64,000 nucleotides of DNA from Kitasatospora sp. SUK 42. Its GTDB lineage: Bacteria; Actinomycetota; Actinomycetes; Streptomycetales; Streptomycetaceae. Under the pieces are notes generated by a model. That model was not told the origin of the DNA. It saw only the letters and a list, made by a program, of their open reading frames with translations, and did not search any database. Where the stretch lies: positions 1,582,330 to 1,646,329 of the forward strand of contig NZ_LFMD02000003.1 in assembly GCF_015776785.2 (NCBI RefSeq), read 5' to 3'. Position 1 is the stretch's first letter. Each line of letters starts with the position of its first letter. Both the position numbers and the translations under genes were made by a program. Of this stretch, positions 3,566 through 57,421 are shown one piece after another.

Positions 3566-6128
3566 GAGGTGGCTCCTCCCCAGGGACGGCAGGCTCGGTG
3601 ACGGCGGGCTCGGTGACGGCGGGCAGGGTGAGCAGCATGGTGGTGCCGCCCCCGGGGGTGTCCTCGACCTCCAGGCTGCCGCCCATGGCCTCGGCGAGGC
3701 CGCGGGACAGGGCGAGGCCCAGGCCCACCCCGGTGGTGTTGTCGGTGTCGCCGAGGCGCTGGAAGGGCAGGAAGACCCGGTCCCGGTCCTCGGGGGCGAT
3801 GCCGGGGCCGCGGTCGATCACCCGGATCTCGACCTGGTCGGCGTGGTGGCTGGCGGTGACCAGCACGGGCGCGCCGGGGGCGTTGTACCGCAGCGCGTTG
3901 GTGATCACATTGGCGAGCACCCGCTCCAGCAGCGGCGGGTCGGCGAGCACCGGCGGGGCGGTGTCCAGGTCGAGCGGCTGGACCGGCGCGTACGGGTCGG
4001 GGAGGCTGTCCAGCGCCCTGGGCAGGATCTCGTCCAGGTGGGTCTCGGTGAGGTGCAGGGTGAGCGCGCCCGCCTGCAACCGGCTCATGTCGAGCAGGTT
4101 GTCGACCAGCCGGGTGAGCTTGACCAGCGACTCGTCAGCGGTGGCCAGGAGTTCGGCCTGGTCCTCGGACGAGAACTCGACGTCCGGGCTGCGCAGCGAG
4201 CCGACCGAGGCGCGGGCGGCGGCGAGCGGGGTGCGCAGGTCGTGGCTGACGGCGGCGAGCAGCGCGGTGCGCATCCGGTCGGCGGCCTTGATCGGTTCGA
4301 CCTCGGCGGCGGCCACGGCCAGCCGCTCGCGCTCCAGCGCCGCGCCGACGTGGGCCGCGAAGGCGGTGAGCACCCGCTGGTCGGAGGCGGGCAGCCGGCG
4401 CCCGACGAGGACCAGGACGGCGTCGGCGCCGACCGGGACCTCGGTGGTCTCCTCCCCCGGCTCGGCGGCGGGGTGCTCGGCCTGGCAGTGGGCCAGCACC
4501 TCGCCGCCGCTGCGGGAGAGCAGGGCGACGGAGTCCATGCCGAAGGCCGTACGGGACTTCTCCAGCAGGGCGGGCAGCGCGTCGGCGCCGCGCAGCACGC
4601 TGCCGGCCAGGGTGGAGAGGGTCTCGGCCTCGGCGGTGGCGCGGGCGGCCCTGGTGGTGAGCCGGCCGGCGTGGTCGACCACGGTGGAGACGGCGAGCGC
4701 GATGGCGGCGAAGACCACCAGGGCGACGATGTTGTTGGTCTCGCCGATGGTCAGGCTGTGGACGGGCGGGATGAAGTAGTAGTTCAGCAGCACCGAGGCG
4801 ATGAACGAGGCCACCAGGGCGGACATGGCGCCGCCGAGCAGGGCGACGATGACCACGCCGAGCTGGAAGATCAGCGCGTCGGTGGTGAGGTTGATGCTCT
4901 CGTGCGCCTGGGAGAGCACCACGGTGAGCAGCCAGGGCACCACGAAGCCCGCCAGGTAGCCGGCGATGGTGCGGCGCCTGGAGTGGCGGCGGCCCAGCGA
5001 GGGCAGTCGGCCGCGGCCGGTGAACTCGTGGGTGACCATGTGGACGTCGATGTCCTCGGAGTCGTCCACGGTCGTCTGTCCGGTGCCGGGGCCGGTGAGG
5101 AAGCGGTTGATCCGGCCGCGGCGGCTGGTGCCGAGCACCAGCTGGGTGGCGTCGTGGGCGCGGGCGAAGGTGAGCAGCGCGGTCGGGACGTCGTCGCCGA
5201 CCACCACGTGGTAGCTGCCGCCGAGGGTCTCGACCAGCAGCCGCTGCTGGGCGAGCGCGCCGGAGGAGGCGCCGGCCAGGCCGTCGCTGCGGGAGACGTG
5301 GACGGCCAGCAGGTCTCCGCCGGCGGTGCGGTCGGCGATCCGGGCGGCGCGTCTGATCAGGGTCTCGCCCTCGGGGCCGCCGGTGAGGGCGACCACGACC
5401 CGCTCGCGGGTCTCCCAGACCCGGTCGATGTTGTGGCTGGCCCGGTAGTCGCGCAGCCCCTCGTCGACCCGCCCGGCCACCCAGAGCAGGGCGAGTTCGC
5501 GCAGGGCGGTGAGGTTGCCGATCCGGAAGTAGTTGGAGAGCGCCGCGTCCACCTTCTCCGCCTTGTAGACGTTGCCGTGGGCCATGCGCCGGCGCAGCGC
5601 CTGCGGGGCCATGTCGACGAGTTCGATCTGGTCGGCCCGGCGAACCACCTCGTCCGGGACGGTCTCGCGCTGCGGGATGCCGGTGATCTTCTGGACGACG
5701 TCGTTCAGCGATTCCAGGTGCTGGATGTTGACGGTGGTGATGACGTCGATCCCGGCGGCCAGCAGCTCCTCGACGTCCTGCCAGCGCTTGGCGTGGCGGC
5801 CGCCGGGGATGTTGGTGTGCGCCAGCTCGTCCACCAGCACGACGGACGGGCGGCGGGCGAGCACCGCGTCCAGGTCCATCTCCTCGAACTCGGCGTCGCG
5901 GTAGGAGCGGTGGGAGCGCGGCAGGACCTCCAGGCCTTCGAGCATGGCCTCGGTGTGGCGGCGGCCGTGGCACTCGATGTACCCGACCACGACATCGGCC
6001 CCGCGCTCCTGTCTGCGCCGGGCCTCGTCCAGCATCCGGAAGGTCTTGCCGACCCCCGGGGCGGAACCGAGGTACACCCTCAGCCGGCCGTTGCGGATGC
6101 CGGTGCCGGGGGTGAGGTCGCGGGCCAT
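3558..6128 (-). CDS. kdpD: Sensor histidine kinase KdpD
   Basis: An 856-residue K+/turgor sensor. Order of parts: N-terminal KdpD domain with Walker A (GSAPGVGKT, about 20-30) and Walker B (VVLVDELAH); a UspA-like domain (about 240-370, LGTSRRGRINRF); four hydrophobic segments (about 390-490); a GAF-like region; then histidine kinase DHp with H629 (SHDLRTPL) and the N, D and G boxes (NVITNALRYN, DRGPGIA, GVGLGLALS). I chose the ATG at 6128 because AAAGAAG lies 8 nt upstream; a GTG two codons earlier is only 2 nt from it. The C-terminus has a short AVTEP duplication. A strong hairpin separates it from kdpC. Confidence 0.94.
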   Translation of the reverse strand: MARDLTPGTGIRNGRLRVYLGSAPGVGKTFRMLDEARRRQERGADVVVGYIECHGRRHTEAMLEGLEVLPRSHRSYRDAEFEEMDLDAVLARRPSVVLVDELAHTNIPGGRHAKRWQDVEELLAAGIDVITTVNIQHLESLNDVVQKITGIPQRETVPDEVVRRADQIELVDMAPQALRRRMAHGNVYKAEKVDAALSNYFRIGNLTALRELALLWVAGRVDEGLRDYRASHNIDRVWETRERVVVALTGGPEGETLIRRAARIADRTAGGDLLAVHVSRSDGLAGASSGALAQQRLLVETLGGSYHVVVGDDVPTALLTFARAHDATQLVLGTSRRGRINRFLTGPGTGQTTVDDSEDIDVHMVTHEFTGRGRLPSLGRRHSRRRTIAGYLAGFVVPWLLTVVLSQAHESINLTTDALIFQLGVVIVALLGGAMSALVASFIASVLLNYYFIPPVHSLTIGETNNIVALVVFAAIALAVSTVVDHAGRLTTRAARATAEAETLSTLAGSVLRGADALPALLEKSRTAFGMDSVALLSRSGGEVLAHCQAEHPAAEPGEETTEVPVGADAVLVLVGRRLPASDQRVLTAFAAHVGAALERERLAVAAAEVEPIKAADRMRTALLAAVSHDLRTPLAAARASVGSLRSPDVEFSSEDQAELLATADESLVKLTRLVDNLLDMSRLQAGALTLHLTETHLDEILPRALDSLPDPYAPVQPLDLDTAPPVLADPPLLERVLANVITNALRYNAPGAPVLVTASHHADQVEIRVIDRGPGIAPEDRDRVFLPFQRLGDTDNTTGVGLGLALSRGLAEAMGGSLEVEDTPGGGTTMLLTLPAVTEPAVTEPAVPGEEPPHE

Positions 6129-49118: not shown

Positions 49119-50282
49119 TCAGAGGCGCATCGCCTGCGGGGTCTCGCGGCGCGTCAGGTCCGGGCCCTCGTACTCGCGGATGACCTCGTAGCGGGTGTTG
49201 CGCTCGACCGGCCGGAAGCCGGCGTCCCGGATCAGGCCGAGCAGGTCGTCGCGGCCGAGCTTGTTCGGGGTGCCGAAGTTGTCCGCGTCGTGGGTGATCT
49301 TGTACTCGACCACCGAGCCGTCCATGTCGTCCGCGCCGTGGCTGAGCGCCAGCTGGGCGGTGGTGACGCCGTGCATCACCCAGAAGACCTTGACGTGCGG
49401 GACGTTGTCGAAGAGCAGCCGGGAGACCGCGAAGGTCTTCAGCGCCTCGGCGCCGGTGGCCATCTCCGTGCGGGCCATCAGCTTGTTGCGCACGACGCCG
49501 TCCTTGGAGTCGTGGAAGTCGTGCTGGTAGCGCAGCGGGATGAAGACCTGGAAGCCGCCGGTCTCGTCCTGCAGCTCACGCAGCCGCAGCACGTGGTCCA
49601 CCCGGTGGCGGGGCTCCTCGATGTGGCCGTACAGCATGGTGCAGGGCGTCTTGAGGCCCTTGCTGTGGGCGAGGCGGTGGATCCGCGACCAGTCCTCCCA
49701 GTGGGTGTCGTGGTCGACGATGTGCTGGCGGACCTCCCAGTCGAAGATCTCCGCGCCGCCGCCGGTCAGCGACTCCAGGCCTGCGTCGATCAGCTCGTCC
49801 AGGATCTCGTCGGCGGACAGGCCGCTGATCTTCTCGAACCAGTGGATCTCGGTGGCGGTGAAGGCCTTCAGCGAGACGTTCGGCAGGGCCGCCTTGAGCT
49901 CCCGCAGCGAGCGCGGGTAGTAGCGCCAGGGCAGCGTCGGGTGCAGGCCGTTGACGATGTGCAGCTCGGTGAGGGACTCGCTCTCCATCGCCTTGGCGAG
50001 GCGGACGGCCTCCTCGATGCGCATCGTGTAGGCGTCCTTCTCGCCCGGCTTGCGCTGGAACGAGCAGTAGGCGCAGGACGCGCTGCACACGTTGGTCATG
50101 TTGAGGTGACGGTTGACGTTGAAGTGGACGACGTCACCGTTCTTCCGCGTCCGCACGTGGTGGGCCAGCCCGCCCAGCCAGGCCAGGTCGTCGCTCTCGT
50201 AGAGCGCGATCCCGTCCTCGCGGGTCAGCCGCTCACCCGCGTAGACCTTCGCCTCCAGCTCGCGCTTGAGCCCTGCGTCCAT
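49119..50282 (-). CDS. mqnE: Aminofutalosine synthase MqnE
   Basis: 387 residues; a radical-SAM enzyme of the futalosine menaquinone pathway. The cluster motif is C66-SAS-C70-AY-C73, followed by SFQRKPGEKDAYTM. Downstream, LHIVNGLHPTLPWRYYPRSLRELK and AFTATEIHWFEKISG mark MqnE rather than MqnC. It joins 3-[(1-carboxyvinyl)oxy]benzoate with SAM-derived adenosyl to give aminofutalosine. GGAGG lies 11 nt before the ATG. Other pathway genes (mqnM, mqnP, mqnL) lie 1.6-7 kb away in the same orientation. Confidence 0.95.
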   Translation of the reverse strand: MDAGLKRELEAKVYAGERLTREDGIALYESDDLAWLGGLAHHVRTRKNGDVVHFNVNRHLNMTNVCSASCAYCSFQRKPGEKDAYTMRIEEAVRLAKAMESESLTELHIVNGLHPTLPWRYYPRSLRELKAALPNVSLKAFTATEIHWFEKISGLSADEILDELIDAGLESLTGGGAEIFDWEVRQHIVDHDTHWEDWSRIHRLAHSKGLKTPCTMLYGHIEEPRHRVDHVLRLRELQDETGGFQVFIPLRYQHDFHDSKDGVVRNKLMARTEMATGAEALKTFAVSRLLFDNVPHVKVFWVMHGVTTAQLALSHGADDMDGSVVEYKITHDADNFGTPNKLGRDDLLGLIRDAGFRPVERNTRYEVIREYEGPDLTRRETPQAMRL

Positions 50283-50334
50283 GCGGTGACCCGCCTCCTC
50301 CGACATTCGATTCGTTGCCGGAACGAGCGTACGC

Positions 50335-51297
50335 CTATGCCGACAGCAGCTCCGCGAGCAGTGCGGGTTCGATGTTGCCACCGCTGACCACGGCCGCCAC
50401 CGTCTGGCCCCCGGTCTCGGCGGCGCGGTGGAAGTAGGCGGCGGGGGCGACCGCGCCCGAGGGCTCGGCGACCAGCCGGCCGCGGCGGGCGAGCAGCGCG
50501 ACGGTGGCGCGGATCTCGTCCTCGGTGACGGTGACGATGTCGTCCACGTACGTGGTGACGTGCTCGTACGGCAGCACGCCGAGCGAGGGGGTGCGCAGCC
50601 CGTCCGCGATGGTGCGGTAGGTGTCCGCCACCGGCCACTCCACCCGGCGGCCGGAGCGCAGGCTGGCCTGCGCGTCGGCGGCGAGCTCGGGCTCCACGCC
50701 GATCACCCGGACGCCCGGGCGGGTGAGCTTGAGCGCGGCCGCCGTCCCGCCGATCAGGCCGCCGCCGCTGACCGGCACCAGGACGGTGTCCAGCTCGGCG
50801 GGGGCGTCCTCGGCGATCTCCAGGCCGACCGTGCCCTGGCCCGCGATGATGTACGGATCGTCGTACGGCGGCACCCAGACGTAGCCGTGCTGCTCGGCCA
50901 GCTCGCCGGGCAGGGTGTCCCGCTCCCCCGGTGCGACCAGCATCACCTCGGCGCCGTAGGAGCGGGTGGCCTCGACCTTCACCGCGGGCGAGGTGTCCGG
51001 CATCACGATCACGGCCTTGATGCCGAGCAGCTGCGCCGCGTACGCCACCGCCTGCGCGTGGTTGCCGCTGGACTGGGCGACCACGCCGCGGGAACGCTCG
51101 TCCTCGGTGAGCGCGGCCAGCCGGTTGTACGCGCCGCGCGTCTTGAAGGCCCCGGTCGGCTGGAGGTTCTCGGGCTTCAGCCAGAGCCGCCGCTCACCCT
51201 CGGCCGCCCACGGGGCGGGGACCAGCGGGGTGCGCACGGCGACCCCGGCGATCCGCTGCCGAGCGGCGCGCAGCTCCTCCAGACCGACCAGTGCCAT
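50335..51297 (-). CDS. Catabolic-type threonine/serine dehydratase
   Basis: A 320-residue fold-type II PLP enzyme. K52 in PTGAFKTRGAYN binds PLP, QSSGNHAQAVAYAA holds the substrate loop and SGGGLIGG binds phosphate. There is no C-terminal ACT regulatory domain, so it is the short form of threonine ammonia-lyase or a related serine racemase/dehydratase. It starts 5 bp after an Lrp-type regulator gene, forming a two-gene operon likely regulated by an amino acid. Confidence 0.9.
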   Translation of the reverse strand: MALVGLEELRAARQRIAGVAVRTPLVPAPWAAEGERRLWLKPENLQPTGAFKTRGAYNRLAALTEDERSRGVVAQSSGNHAQAVAYAAQLLGIKAVIVMPDTSPAVKVEATRSYGAEVMLVAPGERDTLPGELAEQHGYVWVPPYDDPYIIAGQGTVGLEIAEDAPAELDTVLVPVSGGGLIGGTAAALKLTRPGVRVIGVEPELAADAQASLRSGRRVEWPVADTYRTIADGLRTPSLGVLPYEHVTTYVDDIVTVTEDEIRATVALLARRGRLVAEPSGAVAPAAYFHRAAETGGQTVAAVVSGGNIEPALLAELLSA

Positions 51298-51302
51298 TCC
51301 GA

Positions 51303-51761
51303 TCACTCTCCTACGGGGGGAAGTTCGCTCACCCGGTTCTCCCACTTCGTGGAGAGTACGACGGTGGTGCGGGTCCGGGCCACGCCCTTCGTGCCCGAGA
51401 TCCGTTTGACCACCGACTCCAGGCCGGCCACATCGGCCACCCTGACCTTGAGCATGTAGGAGTCGTCGCCCGCGATGAACCAGCAGTCCTCGACCTCGTT
51501 GAGGTCCTTCAGCCGGAACGCGACGTCCTCGTGGTCGGCCGCGTCGGTGAGTTGGAGGCCGATCAGGGCCGTGACGCCGAAACCGAGCGAGGCCGGGTTG
51601 ACCGTCGCCCGGTAGCCGGTGATCACCCCCGCCTGCTCCAGGCGGTTGATCCGGTCCGTGACGCTCGGGCCGGAGAGTCCGACCAGCCGGCCCAGCTCGG
51701 CGTAGGACGCGCGGCCGTTCTCCCGGAGCGCCTGGATGAGCTGTCTGTCCACCGTGTCCAT
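51303..51761 (-). CDS. Lrp/AsnC-family regulator
   Basis: 152 residues. N-terminal HTH: DRQLIQALRENGRASYAELGRLVGLSGPSVTDRINRLEQAGVITGY. The C-terminal RAM/ACT-like domain (about 62-140: TALIGLQLTDAADHEDV, DCWFIAGDDSYMLKVRVADV) binds an amino-acid effector. It precedes the threonine dehydratase gene. The minus strand has GATAAT at about 51809-51804, a good -10 for this unit, giving a leader of ~35 nt. Confidence 0.92.
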   Translation of the reverse strand: MDTVDRQLIQALRENGRASYAELGRLVGLSGPSVTDRINRLEQAGVITGYRATVNPASLGFGVTALIGLQLTDAADHEDVAFRLKDLNEVEDCWFIAGDDSYMLKVRVADVAGLESVVKRISGTKGVARTRTTVVLSTKWENRVSELPPVGE

Positions 51762-51880
51762 ATACCGTCCGCGTCCTTCCGAACCTCACCAGACCCACAG
51801 ATCATTATCCGGATTCAAAGGCGCCATGCGCTGACCGACCCGGATATCGCAGAGAAGATACTCTCCTGCCCGAGGTCTCC

Positions 51881-52555
51881 TTACTCCCCCTCAGCCGGTA
51901 CGGCGCCGTCGCTCCCTCCCTTGCGGGCGGCCGCCCCCAACTCCCCTTCCCAGCGCAGGTACAGGGAATGCGGCACACCGACCGCGTCCAGCACCCTTCC
52001 GGCCACGAAATCCACGAGTTCGCGCACGGTGGAGCCGCCGGCGTAGAAACCGGGTGAGGCGGGCAGCACGATCGCGCCCTGCGCGTCGAGCTCCACCAAG
52101 TGCTTCAACGTCACCCCGTTGAGTGGTGTCTCGCGCACGCACACGACCAACGGGCGGCGCTCCTTGAGGGTGACGCTGGCCACCCGCTGCAGCAGGTCCT
52201 TGCTCAGGCCGAGCGCGATCCCGGCCACCGCGCCGGTGGTCGCGGGGACGACCAGCATGCCCTTGGCGGGGTACGAGCCGCTGGACGGGCCGGCCGCGAA
52301 GTCCCCGGCGGGCCAGTAGCGGACGTCGTCCAGGCCCTCGTCGGTGCCGAGCCAGGCGGCCAGGTCGGTGCGCCAGTGGGCGTCCCGGAAGGAGATGCCG
52401 GTCTCGTCCAGGATGGTGAGCCGGGCGGCCCGGCTGACGATCAGGTCCACCGCCTCACCGGCGGCGAGCAGCGCCCGGATCACCGAGGCCGCGTACGGCG
52501 TCCCCGACGCTCCCGAGACCCCGACCACCCACGGCTGACGCTTCGCAGTTCCCAT
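51881..52555 (-). CDS. mqnM: Flavin prenyltransferase UbiX/MqnM
   Basis: 224 residues of the UbiX flavoprotein fold: VVGVSGASGTPYAASVIRAL at the N-terminus, MLVVPATTGAVAGIALGLSKDLLQRVASVTLKERRPLVVCVRETPLN in the centre. It makes prenylated FMN, the cofactor of UbiD-type decarboxylases. The mqnL (ubiD) gene 3.4 kb away is the obvious user. The C-terminus carries a 20-residue hydrophilic tail. A 119-bp gap to the Lrp gene separates operons. Confidence 0.93.
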   Translation of the reverse strand: MGTAKRQPWVVGVSGASGTPYAASVIRALLAAGEAVDLIVSRAARLTILDETGISFRDAHWRTDLAAWLGTDEGLDDVRYWPAGDFAAGPSSGSYPAKGMLVVPATTGAVAGIALGLSKDLLQRVASVTLKERRPLVVCVRETPLNGVTLKHLVELDAQGAIVLPASPGFYAGGSTVRELVDFVAGRVLDAVGVPHSLYLRWEGELGAAARKGGSDGAVPAEGE

Positions 52556-52631
52556 GGGGCATTTCTATCCGGCTTCGTCCCGTTCGTTCACACGCGCCCA
52601 CCGGCCCGGCCGTCCCTGGGAGGATGGGGGC

Positions 52632-53372
52632 ATGGCAGCGACCCTCGTCGACCTCACCCATCAGGTGACCACCGCGATGCCGGTCTACCCCGGCGATCCG
52701 GCCGTCCTGCTGGAGCCCGCGCTCACCACCGCCACCGCGGGGGTGAACGTGCTGGCCCTGCACCTCGGCTCGCAGTCCGGGACGCACGTGGACGCGCCGT
52801 ACCACGTGGACGTCACCTGGCCCACCCTGGACGGGCTGCCGCTGGAGCGGTTCACCGGCCCGGCCGTGGTGGCCGACCTGCGCGGGCTGGAGCCCCGGGC
52901 GGCCGTCACCCCCGAGCTGCTGGCGCCCGCGCTGGAGCGCTGCGGCGAGGGTTCCGTCCTGCTGCTGACCACCGGCTGGGTCCGGCACTGGGGCACGGAG
53001 GCCTACCTCGCCCACCCGGCGCTGACCCCGGCCGCCGCCGAGGCGATCGTCGCCGCCGGGGTGCGGACGATCGGCGTGGACGCGCTGAGCGTCGACCCCA
53101 CCCCCGACCCCGGCCCGGGCGACCCGGCGGTGGCCGCGCTGCTCGCCGACCTCACCGACGAGCACGACCAGCCCGCCGAGGAGCCGACCCTGGCCGCGCA
53201 CCGGGTGCTGCTGGGGGCCTCCGGCGGCGGGGTGATCGCCGAGAACCTGACCGATCTGCGGCCCCTGCTGGAGGCTCAGGAGGCCGGCCGCCCGGTCGAG
53301 GTCTCGCTGTTCCCGCTGCGGCTGGTGGCGGCGGACGGCGCCCCGGTACGGGCGGTGGCCCGGCTGGGCTGA
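52632..53372 (+). CDS. Cyclase-family metal hydrolase (kynurenine-formamidase-like)
   Basis: 246 residues from MAATLVDLTHQVTTAMPVYPGDP, with GGAGG 8 nt upstream. The cyclase/KynB-type metal site HxGTHxDxxxH is SQSGTHVDAPYHV. VDALSVDP and LASGGGV-like GASGGGVIAENL fit the fold. The family hydrolyses amide or ester bonds in kynurenine, isatin and polyketide-like substrates; the actual substrate is unknown. No kynurenine pathway gene is adjacent. A single gene next to ubiX, divergently oriented. Confidence 0.85.
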   Translation: MAATLVDLTHQVTTAMPVYPGDPAVLLEPALTTATAGVNVLALHLGSQSGTHVDAPYHVDVTWPTLDGLPLERFTGPAVVADLRGLEPRAAVTPELLAPALERCGEGSVLLLTTGWVRHWGTEAYLAHPALTPAAAEAIVAAGVRTIGVDALSVDPTPDPGPGDPAVAALLADLTDEHDQPAEEPTLAAHRVLLGASGGGVIAENLTDLRPLLEAQEAGRPVEVSLFPLRLVAADGAPVRAVARLG

Positions 53373-53399
53373 ACCCGTCGCCGAGCGGCGCACGACACT

Positions 53400-53411
53400 T
53401 GGTCTAGACCA
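53400..53411 (+). promoter_or_regulatory. DasR-type responsive element (dre) before the MOSC gene
   Basis: A perfect 12-bp palindrome, TGGTCTAGACCA. This is the core of the 16-bp dre consensus bound by the GlcNAc-responsive regulator DasR. It overlaps a likely -35 (TAGACC, 53405-53410) 17 bp before a good -10 (TACGCT, 53428-53433), which itself lies 8 nt before the ATG. Position fits repression. The outer two bases on each side do not match the consensus well. Confidence 0.65.
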
Positions 53412-53441
53412 TCCTCGGTAGCGCCACTACGCTGTTCGGCC

Positions 53442-54158
53442 ATGGCTGAGATCATCGGAGTGGTCGAGCGACTCTGGCGCTACCCCGTGAAGTCCACCGG
53501 CGGCGAACGGCTCAACTCCGTCGAGGTGGACGAACGCGGCCTGGCCGGCGACCGCCTCTACGCCGTCCGCGACGCCTCCGGCAAACTCGGCTCGGGCAAG
53601 AACACCCGCCGCTTCCGCCGGATGGACGGCCTGCTCAGGCTCTCCGCCCGCCTCGGCCGCCGGATCGACGGCCCCGAGCTGTTCGACCCGCTCGGCCGCC
53701 CGGTCGACCACCCGACCGCCTTCCTGCGCGCCTACCTCCAGCGCGAGGACGTCGAGCTCGCCCGCGAGGACGCCGTCTCGCACTTCGACCGGCTGCCGGT
53801 CAGCGTGCTCACCACCGCCACCCTGGACTGGGTCCGTGAGGCCGTCCCCTTCGCCGCGGTGGACGAACGCCGCTTCCGCCCCAACATCGTGCTGCGCACC
53901 CCGCCCGGCACCCCGCCCTTCGTCGAGGACGCCTGGCTCGGCCGCCAGGCCCGCGGCGAGGCCCCGGACAGCGCCCGGCTCGCCTTCGTCGACTCCAGCG
54001 AGCGCTGCGCGATGACCTCCGCCCCGCAGCCCGGCCTGCCGCACGCCCCCGAGATCCTCAAGGCCATCGTGCACGCCCACGAGGGCCGCCTCGACGCCCT
54101 CGCCGAGGTCGCCGCCCCGGGCCGGCTGCGCCTCGGCGACCGCCTGGTCCTGGACTGA
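53442..54158 (+). CDS. MOSC-domain molybdoenzyme-like protein
   Basis: 238 residues. The N-terminal MOSC_N beta-barrel reads VERLWRYPVKSTGGERLNSVEVDERGLAGDRLYAVRD; the C-terminal MOSC domain has RRFRPNIVLRTPPGTPPFVEDAWLG and the conserved C189 in SSERCAMTSAP, which can bind the molybdenum cofactor. This matches mARC/YiiM-like reductases of N-hydroxylated compounds, or sulfur carriers. Substrate unknown. The promoter contains a DasR-like palindrome and the mRNA is probably leaderless. Confidence 0.88.
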   Translation: MAEIIGVVERLWRYPVKSTGGERLNSVEVDERGLAGDRLYAVRDASGKLGSGKNTRRFRRMDGLLRLSARLGRRIDGPELFDPLGRPVDHPTAFLRAYLQREDVELAREDAVSHFDRLPVSVLTTATLDWVREAVPFAAVDERRFRPNIVLRTPPGTPPFVEDAWLGRQARGEAPDSARLAFVDSSERCAMTSAPQPGLPHAPEILKAIVHAHEGRLDALAEVAAPGRLRLGDRLVLD

Positions 54159-54225
54159 CGTTCCATCAGGCCAGCCGCGCTGACCGGCCGTTCGGACGGG
54201 CCCCTTCCGGGGAAGGAGCGGGGGC

Positions 54226-54981
54226 ATGACGATCCCTCACCGCCTGATCGGCACCGGCGACCACCACGTCCTGGTCCTGCACGACTGGTTCGGCACCAGC
54301 GCGGGCTGGGGCCCCTTCCTCGACTACCTCGACGGCGGGGCCTTCAGCTACGCCTTCCTGGACTTCCGCGGCTACGGGGAGCGCAAGGGCGTCTCCGGCA
54401 CGTACACGCTCGCCGAGATCGCCTCGGACGCGCTCGCCCTCGCCGACCAGCTCGGCTGGGACCGCTTCTCCCTGGTCGGCCACTCGATGGGCGGCAAGGC
54501 GGTCCAGCAGGTGCTCGCCGAGGCTCCGCTGCGGGTGCGCAAGCTGGTCGGCCTGGCGCCGGTGCCAGCCGGGCCGTACCCCCTGGACGAGGCCGGCGCG
54601 GCGCTGTTCCACGGCGCCGCCGGGGACCGGGAGAAGCGGTTCGCGATCCTCGACCTGGTCACCGGCCTGCGCGCCGGGCGGGTCTGGCTCGACCGCATGG
54701 TCGACCAGTCCCTGCGGGACTCCACCCCCGAGGCCTTCGACGGGTACGTCCGGGACTGGACGACGGCCGACCTGGAGGCGCGGATCAGCGGCAACCCCGT
54801 CCCGGTCAAGGTCATCGTGGGCGGACACGACCTCGCCCTGACCGCCGAGCTGATGCGCGGCACCTGGCTCGCCCACTACCCCAACGCCGTCCTGGAGGAG
54901 CTCGACGGCAGCGGGCACTACCCCATGTACGAGGCCCCGGTGGCCCTGGCGGCCTCGCTGGAGGGCTTCCTGCACAACTGA
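54226..54981 (+). CDS. Alpha/beta hydrolase
   Basis: 251 residues. Nucleophile S87 in LVGHSMGGKAV, acid in VIVGGHDLALT (about 208) and histidine in DGSGHYPMYEAP (about 236) form the triad; HDWFGTSAGWGPF near the N-terminus is the oxyanion region. GGGGAAGGAG precedes the ATG. Substrate unknown. It lies 67 bp after the MOSC gene and may share its transcript. Confidence 0.87.
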   Translation: MTIPHRLIGTGDHHVLVLHDWFGTSAGWGPFLDYLDGGAFSYAFLDFRGYGERKGVSGTYTLAEIASDALALADQLGWDRFSLVGHSMGGKAVQQVLAEAPLRVRKLVGLAPVPAGPYPLDEAGAALFHGAAGDREKRFAILDLVTGLRAGRVWLDRMVDQSLRDSTPEAFDGYVRDWTTADLEARISGNPVPVKVIVGGHDLALTAELMRGTWLAHYPNAVLEELDGSGHYPMYEAPVALAASLEGFLHN

Positions 54982-55018
54982 GGCCCGCCCCCCCTGCCGG
55001 GAGCGGGCCCGCGAGCGC

Positions 55019-55050
55019 GTCCGGCCCTCCTCGGGCGAGGAGGGCCGGAC
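55019..55050. terminator. Bidirectional hairpin between hydrolase and mqnP genes
   Basis: 15-bp perfect arms, GTCCGGCCCTCCTCG (55019-55033) and its complement (55036-55050), two bases apart, between convergent genes. A weaker GGCCCGC/GCGGGCC stem lies just before. Confidence 0.75.
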
Positions 55051-55070
55051 GGTCGGACGGTCGGGTGGGA

Positions 55071-55973
55071 TCAGATGCCGAGCCCGCGGACGACCAGGTC
55101 CAGCAGTGCGAAGAAGAACAGCGAGATGCCCACGAAGCTGTTCGTCTGGAAGAACGCCCGGTTGAGCTTCGACAGGTCGTTCGGCTTCACGATGGTGTGC
55201 TCGTACACGAACGCGCCCGCGACGACCGCGAGACCGATCCAGAACGCCACCCCGGCGTCGGTGAGCACCGCGAACCAGCCCAGCAGGAGGGTGGTCAGCA
55301 GGTGGCAGGCCCGGGCGCCCCGGATGGCCGCCGGCACGCCGAACCGGGCCGGCACCGAGCGCACGCCGTTCTCCCGGTCCGACTCGACGTCCTGGCAGGC
55401 GTAGATGAGGTCGAAGCCGCCGATCCAGACGCCGACCGCCACCCCGAGGACGACGGCCTCCCAGGACCAGCTGCCCGTCACCGCGAGCCAGGCGCCCACC
55501 GGGCCCATCGCCTGCGCGATGCCCAGGATCGCCTGCGGGAAGTTCGTGAACCGCTTGCCGTACGGGTAGACCACCATCGGCACCACGGCCACCGGCGCGA
55601 GCGCCAGGCACAGCGGGTTGAGCATCGCCGCCGCGCCGAGGAAGACCACCAGCGCGATCGCCGAACCGACGTACGCCGTCCGCAGCGACACGGCCCCGGT
55701 GACCAGTTCGCGGGTGGCCGTGCGCGGGTTGCGGGCGTCGATCTCGCGGTCGATGATCCGGTTCGCCGCCATGGCGAAGGTCCGCAGGCCGACCATGCAC
55801 ACCGTGACGACGAACAGCTCGCCCCAGTGCACCCGCCTGTCGGCGAGGAACATGGCCGTCAGCGCGGCGGTGTAGGCGAAGGGCAGGGCGAAGACCGAGT
55901 GCTCGATCATCACCAGGCGCAGGAAGGCCTTGGTGCGCCCCGGGGTTTCGACGACAGCACTGCTGCTGCTCAC
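55071..55973 (-). CDS. mqnP: UbiA-family prenyltransferase of menaquinone synthesis
   Basis: 300 residues from GTG, overlapping the mqnL stop (GTGA). Eight to nine helices with two acidic prenyl-diphosphate motifs: NRIIDREIDARNPRT (about 73-87) and DLIYACQDVESDREN (about 190-204). It attaches the polyprenyl tail to the naphthoate-type intermediate of the futalosine pathway. Translational coupling to the UbiD-type decarboxylase gene supports this role over haem or ubiquinone synthesis. Confidence 0.92.
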   Translation of the reverse strand: MSSSSAVVETPGRTKAFLRLVMIEHSVFALPFAYTAALTAMFLADRRVHWGELFVVTVCMVGLRTFAMAANRIIDREIDARNPRTATRELVTGAVSLRTAYVGSAIALVVFLGAAAMLNPLCLALAPVAVVPMVVYPYGKRFTNFPQAILGIAQAMGPVGAWLAVTGSWSWEAVVLGVAVGVWIGGFDLIYACQDVESDRENGVRSVPARFGVPAAIRGARACHLLTTLLLGWFAVLTDAGVAFWIGLAVVAGAFVYEHTIVKPNDLSKLNRAFFQTNSFVGISLFFFALLDLVVRGLGI

Positions 55974-57421
55974 AGTCCGTATTCCTTCCAGCGACGCGAG
56001 ACCAGCGCGGCCGTCGCCGGGTCCGAGGAGACCATCTCCGGCCAGCCGCCGTCCCGGGTGTAGCCCTCCTCCGGCAGCTTGCGGGTCGCGTCGATGCCCG
56101 CCTTGCCGCCCCAGAACTGCTGGTAGGAGGCGTGGTCGAGGTGGTCGACCGGGCCCTCGACGACCGTGAGGTCGCGGCTGTAGTCGACGTTGCCGAAGGC
56201 CCGCCAGGCGACCTCCTGGTAGTCGTGCACGTCGCAGTCGGAGTCCACCACGATGATCAGCTTGGTCAGCGACATCATGTGCGCGCCCCAGATCGCGTGC
56301 ATCGTCTTCTGGGCGTGCTTCGGGTACTTCTTGTCGATCGAGACGATCACGCAGTTGTGGAAGCCGCCCGCCTCGGGCAGGTCGTAGTCGACGATGTCCG
56401 GGATGATGATCTTCAGCAGCGGCAGGAAGAACCGCTCGGTGAACTTGCCCAGCGGGCCGTCCTCCGTCGGCGGGCGGCCGACCACGATGGACTGGAGGAT
56501 CGGACGGCGGCGCATCGTCACGCAGTCGATCTTCAGCGCCGGGAACGGCTCCTGCGGGGTGTAGAAGCCGGTGTGGTCGCCGAACGGGCCCTCCGGCAGC
56601 ATCTCGCCGGGCTCCAGCCAGCCCTCCAGCACCACCTCGGCGTCGGCCGGGACCTGCAGCGGGACGGTCTTGCAGTCGACCATCCGCACCCGCTCCCCCG
56701 CGACGAAGCCGGCGAAGAGGTACTCGTCGATGTCCCCGGGCAGCGGCGCGGTGGCCGCGTAGGTGACGGCCGGCGGGCAGCCGAAGGCGATCGCGACCGG
56801 CAGCCGCTCCCCGCGCCTGGCCGCCACGGCGTAGTGGTTGCGGCTGTCCTTGTGGATCTGCCAGTGCATCCCGATGGTGCGGCGGTCGTGCCGCTGGAGC
56901 CGGTAGAGGCCCAGGTTGCGGACGCCGGTGTCCGGGTCCTTGGTGTGGGTCAGGCCCAGGTTGAAGAAGGAGCCGCCGTCCAGCGGCCAGGTGAAGAGCG
57001 CGGGCAGTTCGTCCAGGTTGACGTCGTCCCCGGTGAGCACGACCTCCTGGACGGGCGCGTCCTTCACGTTCCGGGGCGGCACGTGCGCGATCGAGGCGAG
57101 CTTGCCGAAGGCGTCCCGGAAGCCGGTGAAGCCGTGCGGCAGTTCCGGCTTGAGCAGTCCGGCGATCTTCTCCGAGATGTCGTCCGGGCCCTTGAGTCCG
57201 AGCGCCTTGGCCAGGCGCCGCTCGGTGCCGAAGACGTTCATCGCGAGCGGCATCGACGAGCCCTTGACGTTCTCGAACAGCAGCGCCGGGCCCTTGGCCT
57301 TCTGCACGCGATCGACGATCTCGCCGACCTCCAGGTGCGGGTCCACCTCCGCCTTGATGCGCTTGAGGTCGCCCTCGCGGTCGAGGGCCCGGAGAAACGA
57401 GCGGAGATCGTCGTATGCCAT
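55970..57421 (-). CDS. mqnL: UbiD-family decarboxylase of menaquinone synthesis
   Basis: 483 residues. The prenyl-FMN decarboxylase family is recognised by LLFENVKGSSMPLAMNVFGT, WQIHKDSRNHYAVA, FGCPPAVTYAATAP, VVLEGWLEPGEMLPEGPFGDHTGFYTP with the acid residues of the active site, and KIIIPDIVDYDLPEAGGFHNCVIVSI. It decarboxylates 1,4-dihydroxy-6-naphthoate-type intermediates after or before prenylation. Cofactor comes from mqnM. First gene of the mqnL-mqnP unit. Confidence 0.93.
   Translation of the reverse strand: MAYDDLRSFLRALDREGDLKRIKAEVDPHLEVGEIVDRVQKAKGPALLFENVKGSSMPLAMNVFGTERRLAKALGLKGPDDISEKIAGLLKPELPHGFTGFRDAFGKLASIAHVPPRNVKDAPVQEVVLTGDDVNLDELPALFTWPLDGGSFFNLGLTHTKDPDTGVRNLGLYRLQRHDRRTIGMHWQIHKDSRNHYAVAARRGERLPVAIAFGCPPAVTYAATAPLPGDIDEYLFAGFVAGERVRMVDCKTVPLQVPADAEVVLEGWLEPGEMLPEGPFGDHTGFYTPQEPFPALKIDCVTMRRRPILQSIVVGRPPTEDGPLGKFTERFFLPLLKIIIPDIVDYDLPEAGGFHNCVIVSIDKKYPKHAQKTMHAIWGAHMMSLTKLIIVVDSDCDVHDYQEVAWRAFGNVDYSRDLTVVEGPVDHLDHASYQQFWGGKAGIDATRKLPEEGYTRDGGWPEMVSSDPATAALVSRRWKEYGL

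Follow-up and report, generated by a model that had tools for sequence, protein, structure and literature searches.

We found a perfect palindrome, TGGTCTAGACCA, over the promoter of a MOSC-protein gene in Kitasatospora sp. SUK 42. This palindrome is probably a DasR operator (we put the chance at roughly three in four) that is relieved by GlcN-6-P and controls the mARC-like MOSC gene. In the proposed mechanism, the GntR/HutC-family repressor DasR would bind the palindrome as a dimer and cover the -35 element of a leaderless HrdB-type promoter, which would keep the MOSC gene silent. A rise in amino sugars (GlcNAc, chitin) would raise GlcN-6-P and release DasR, and a predicted mARC-like molybdenum N-reductase would then be made. 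GlcN-6-P is the effector of DasR (PMC4333415), and the MOSC palindrome is probably a repressor site relieved by the same compound. The link to GlcNAc is drawn from the identity of the motif and from published work in S. coelicolor and B. subtilis.

The window, which is the whole stretch of 64,000 nucleotides analysed, was searched together with the rest of the genome. The preliminary description had placed a dre core match over the MOSC promoter, and this was confirmed. The core TGGTCTAGACCA lies at 53400-53411 on the forward strand, has perfect dyad symmetry, and ends 30 nt before the ATG of the MOSC gene (53442). An exact-match search found it as a single copy both in the window and in the 6.57 Mb genome. 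The putative operator around it, CTTGGTCTAGACCATC, spans 16 bp (53398-53413, forward strand) and is likewise a unique exact copy. The published dre consensus is A(G/C)TGGTCTAGACCA(G/C)T, also 16 bp (PMC4398421). The MOSC site matches the core of this consensus exactly and none of its four outer letters (CT...TC vs A(G/C)...(G/C)T). Because of these unmatched flanks, which speak against the DasR reading, the site falls outside the list of consensus matches at 3 mismatches.

A dre weight matrix was built from 43 distinct S. coelicolor sites in Table 1 of PMC4398421, with duplicates entered once. Because 8 poor or intragenic rows (act, red, cpk and the like) were not entered, the training range starts higher than it otherwise would. 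The MOSC site scored 19.9, which is above 42% of the 43 training sites (9.9-24.0, median 20.8). The second-best score in the window was 10.9, and random 230-nt pieces reached at most 10.9. A regression fitted to the published scores (leave-one-out r 0.83) predicted about 9.4 for the MOSC site, a moderate score; the printed scores of the dasR and SCO6032-33 sites are 9.05 and 10, respectively (Table 1 of PMC4398421). These two sites, cttggtctagtccata (dasR) and cttggtctagtccatt (SCO6032-33), are supported by EMSA or ChIP and also lack most of the consensus outer letters (PMC4398421). The flank CTTGG is common to the MOSC site, to both of these S. coelicolor sites, and to the site in the Kitasatospora dasR promoter, CTTGGCCTAGACCAAT (30/30 loci).

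To assess conservation of the palindrome, 120 relatives were searched, and a near-full MOSC orthologue was fetched from 66 of the 70 genomes of the same genus. This count omits paralogues at 65-68% (L087, L089, L090), L091 (47%), and weaker matches. In the remaining genomes, G035 has the site and the gene start on a contig end (L279), the only homologue in G011 (65%) lacks the site, and G037 and G050 have weak homologues only. The motif GGTCTAGACC was present once in the 110 nt upstream of each of the 66 orthologues. GGTCTAGACCA was invariant in all 66, and its 11 columns were the only invariant ones in the 99-nt anchored alignment. The full TGGTCTAGACCA was found in 48 orthologues and AGGTCTAGACCA in the other 18 of the 66; perfect palindromy extends over 12 bp in 48/66 and over the inner 10 bp in 66/66. 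Mean pairwise identity was 0.37 over the 36 nt before the block and 0.52 over the 16 nt that follow it, and the first 45 MOSC codons contain 15 four-fold sites, none of which was invariant. Since the flanks have diverged and no four-fold site is invariant, the block is not explained by relatedness alone.

A chance match without function would agree with the frequency of the motif, as the 12-mer is not rare genome-wide. Across the 70 genomes there were 82 exact copies, compared with 56 copies of a control made by reversing the 12-mer, of which 14 came from one genome, G004. These 14 copies are probably a repeat. What is above chance is not the mere occurrence of the 12-mer but its conservation at the MOSC position in 66/66 orthologues. 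This invariance, despite the diverged surroundings, rules out chance as an explanation of the conservation and leaves it a negligible probability. These results suggest that the palindrome, unchanged over the MOSC promoter throughout the genus, may place the MOSC enzyme under the control of chitin sensing.

The palindrome had also been described as overlapping the likely -35, and this holds by spacing. The right half of the operator is a probable -35 hexamer, TAGACC (53405-53410, forward strand), which is separated by 17 nt from a probable -10 hexamer of the TANNNT type, TACGCT (53428-53433, forward strand); a further 8 nt lead to the ATG. Nearly all relatives have either TAGGCT or TACGCT as the -10, and the -35 lies 17-18 nt from it in 66/66 orthologues. 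Counted from the end of GGTCTAGACC, the distance to the TANNNT box was 18 nt in 55/66 and 17 nt in 11/66, and the box was followed by the ATG after 8 nt in 35, 6 nt in 27, and 7 nt in 4 of the orthologues. These box spacings across the 66 orthologues place TAGACC at a -35 position and indicate that the MOSC message is probably leaderless, with its start codon 6-8 nt past the -10 in all of them. An E. coli-type sigma-70 scan returned no promoter in the MOSC upstream region, and the promoter call rests on the TANNNT box and its conservation. TANNNT is the motif of HrdB promoters, most of which have an absent or poorly conserved -35 (PMC6344877).

The block could in principle be a strongly conserved promoter element that binds no GntR/HutC protein, given that its right half is the -35 and keeps a fixed spacing to the -10. 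However, the left half, GGTC, lies outside the -35 and is equally invariant (66/66), the dyad symmetry is perfect, and a conserved -35 is mostly missing from HrdB promoters. The promoter-only explanation was rejected on the equal invariance of the two halves, and we regard it as very improbable.

The same motif was found at genes of the DasR type. DasR itself, identified through its match to PDB 4zs8 (E 4.6e-126), is single-copy in 70/70 genomes. Of the 82 exact 12-mers, 49 were at the MOSC gene and 33 elsewhere; 31 of the latter were identified, and two, both in G061, were left out. DasR-type genes accounted for 23 of these 31, namely nagE-like PTS EIIC (12), nagB (8), an msiK-like ABC gene (1), a GH20 gene (1), and a position upstream of glnA (1). 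The names nagE and msiK were given by resemblance, with one gene of each kind examined in Pfam. The other 8 had no clear amino-sugar link: LytR/CpsA/Psr, an MFS/reductase interval, a tatA-DUF3626 interval (twice), and four without a clear target. The tatA-like/DUF3626 interval holds the exact palindrome in two genomes, at L130 and L133 (G027 and G006). Dre-like sites in the SUK 42 genome also lie at three GH18 genes and at LPMO, PTS EIIC, dasA-dasR, and glnA genes.

As yardsticks of conservation, we used 30 of 35 nagB loci and 30 of 70 dasR loci. GGTCTAGACC was kept in 29/30 nagB loci and GGTGTAGACC in 30/30 dasA-dasR intervals. Compared with these values, the MOSC site (66/66) is as strictly kept as core DasR sites. 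An orthologue of NagB (glucosamine-6-phosphate deaminase) was present in only 35/70 genomes at E 1e-60. In the SUK 42 genome no NagB orthologue was found; its single PF01182 match fits that profile far better than NagB does, and could be a 6-phosphogluconolactonase.

A second HutC-type regulator, L020, might instead own the operator and control both its own gene and the MOSC gene in response to some ligand. L020 (G000:C29:97415-98194, reverse strand) is one of five UTRA-domain proteins and is present in 70/70 genomes (copies L281-L350). In NagR, Arg38 and Arg48 read two guanines of each half-site (PMC4333415), and DasR and L020 are the only two of the five UTRA proteins in which a pair of arginines aligns to these base-contacting residues; in the alignment, L018, L019, and L021 lack the first of the two. 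L020 also carries a look-alike, TTGGTCTTGACCATC, within its own promoter in 70/70 genomes. There, CATTGGTCTTGACCAT occupies a -35-like position about 18 nt before TAGGGT/TAGTGT/TACTGT-like boxes, and TGGTCTTGACCA is found in 70/70. The exact TTGGTCTWGACCA occurs at only three places in the SUK 42 genome, which are the L020 promoter, the MOSC site, and C22:251442, and TTGGTCT.GACCATC is common to the MOSC and L020 sites. The third exact copy of TTGGTCTTGACCA (G000:C22:251442-251454, L351) is without a clear target gene. Behind the L020 promoter site lies a conserved leader that reads TTACTGCAAAGAC or nearly so.

However, the two sites differ at the centre, which is TT in the L020 site (70/70) and TA in the MOSC site (66/66), as in nagB. 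The left flank TTGG is changed to TAGG or AAGG in 18/66 MOSC sites, whereas the L020 site is unchanged in those genomes. Moreover, TGGTCTTGACCA scored 17.5 in the dre matrix, so the site of L020 may itself be a DasR site. We consider control by L020 unlikely, although it is the strongest of the competitors to DasR. As this second HutC regulator occurs universally and has an almost identical site, cross-talk between the two proteins could be put to the test.

The preliminary description was supported in part. A dre-like operator over the -35 of the MOSC gene is conserved in 66/66 orthologues, DasR is present in 70/70 genomes, and the same 12-mer lies at nagE, nagB and similar genes; DasR itself would probably be the protein that binds. 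The idea that the following hydrolase is a general target was not supported. An alpha/beta hydrolase gene recognised by Pfam (54226-54981, forward strand) begins 67 nt downstream of the MOSC gene; no terminator-like site was found, and in this genome the hydrolase could be read through from MOSC. Among 31 named loci, which come largely from the same genomes as the 70-genome set and are not independent of it, only 6 had the hydrolase gene within 4 kb downstream, and in 1 it was adjacent to MOSC. A conserved MOSC-hydrolase operon was therefore rejected. A cyclase gene was upstream in 31/31 named loci, and the next gene was convergent to MOSC in several of the loci examined. Since the hydrolase is rarely adjacent and the next gene is convergent in several cases, the operator would serve MOSC alone in most of these loci. 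At 49119-57421 of the window, MOSC lies among CofH/MqnC-type radical SAM, UbiX-, UbiA-, and UbiD-type genes on the other strand, and these neighbours are perhaps late menaquinone genes.

Homologues beyond the orthologous locus were also scored. No site was found at 12 MOSC homologues (61-66%) from other genera of the family (best score 7.8) or at 4 further MOSC homologues (best score 2.6). The dre matrix gave scores below 9 for 30 of the 31 homologues taken from other loci. The exception was L195 of Streptomyces silaceus, in which a dre-like TATGGTCTGGACCACT (3926-3941, score 21.2) precedes a MOSC homologue that is only distantly related. This site was absent from L381, the only close relative found (1/249 genomes at E 1e-70). 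A general MOSC-DasR link outside Kitasatospora was rejected, as the homologues from other loci lack the site except for L195.

The MOSC gene (53442-54158, forward strand) encodes a protein of 238 aa with both MOSC_N and MOSC domains in Pfam (PF03476, E 3.8e-9; PF03473, E 7.2e-11). A single cysteine, Cys189, is invariant in 37/37 aligned homologues, would be the Mo ligand, and aligns with the RC motif of mARC1. The AF2 model had a pLDDT of 92.3, and its best Foldseek match was human mARC1 (6fw2, E 4.2e-11, TM-score 0.73 by query). The protein would be a mARC-like N-reductase, and its gene is usually the single one behind the operator. MOSC proteins share one cysteine, and those tested reduce N-hydroxylated compounds; mARC also reduces hydroxamic acids (PMC10637980).

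In the open-access literature, we found no report linking DasR and molybdenum (in PMC11528403 the matching string is 'DaSRE'), no relevant report on the MOSC domain with Streptomyces, nothing useful for GGTCTTGACC with Streptomyces, and no study of a Kitasatospora DasR regulon. Judged on that literature, the MOSC site is an unreported predicted addition to the known DasR-type regulon. It would add a target without a known amino-sugar role and give a concrete candidate inducer for the MOSC enzyme. A broader idea, which we put forward only tentatively and hold to be rather doubtful, is that in Kitasatospora a mARC-type N-reductase is a standing part of the amino-sugar response and is switched on via DasR. 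If so, a GlcNAc or chitin signal would lead to the reduction of N-hydroxylated compounds, e.g., hydroxamates or N-hydroxylated natural products released in the course of lysis and antibiotic production, and the operator would be kept perfectly palindromic as strictly as the nag-gene operators.

Compared with the dre sites of the S. coelicolor DasR regulon, the MOSC site is alike in its core, score range, promoter position, and CTTGG flank (PMC4398421). It differs in having a perfect palindromic core and other outer flanks, and no MOSC target was noticed in Table 1 of that report. The dre sites of NagR in Bacillus belong to the same regulator subfamily, with a GGTC half-site read by two arginines (PMC4333415). 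Natural Bacillus sites are stated there not to be perfectly palindromic, whereas the MOSC site is a naturally invariant, perfectly palindromic dre-like sequence. The protein resembles mARC/YcbX-type MOSC enzymes in its MOSC_N and MOSC domains, its invariant Cys, and its best fold match to mARC1. Unlike E. coli YcbX, which has a C-terminal ferredoxin domain, the MOSC protein is short, and Pfam matched no ferredoxin domain in its 238 aa.
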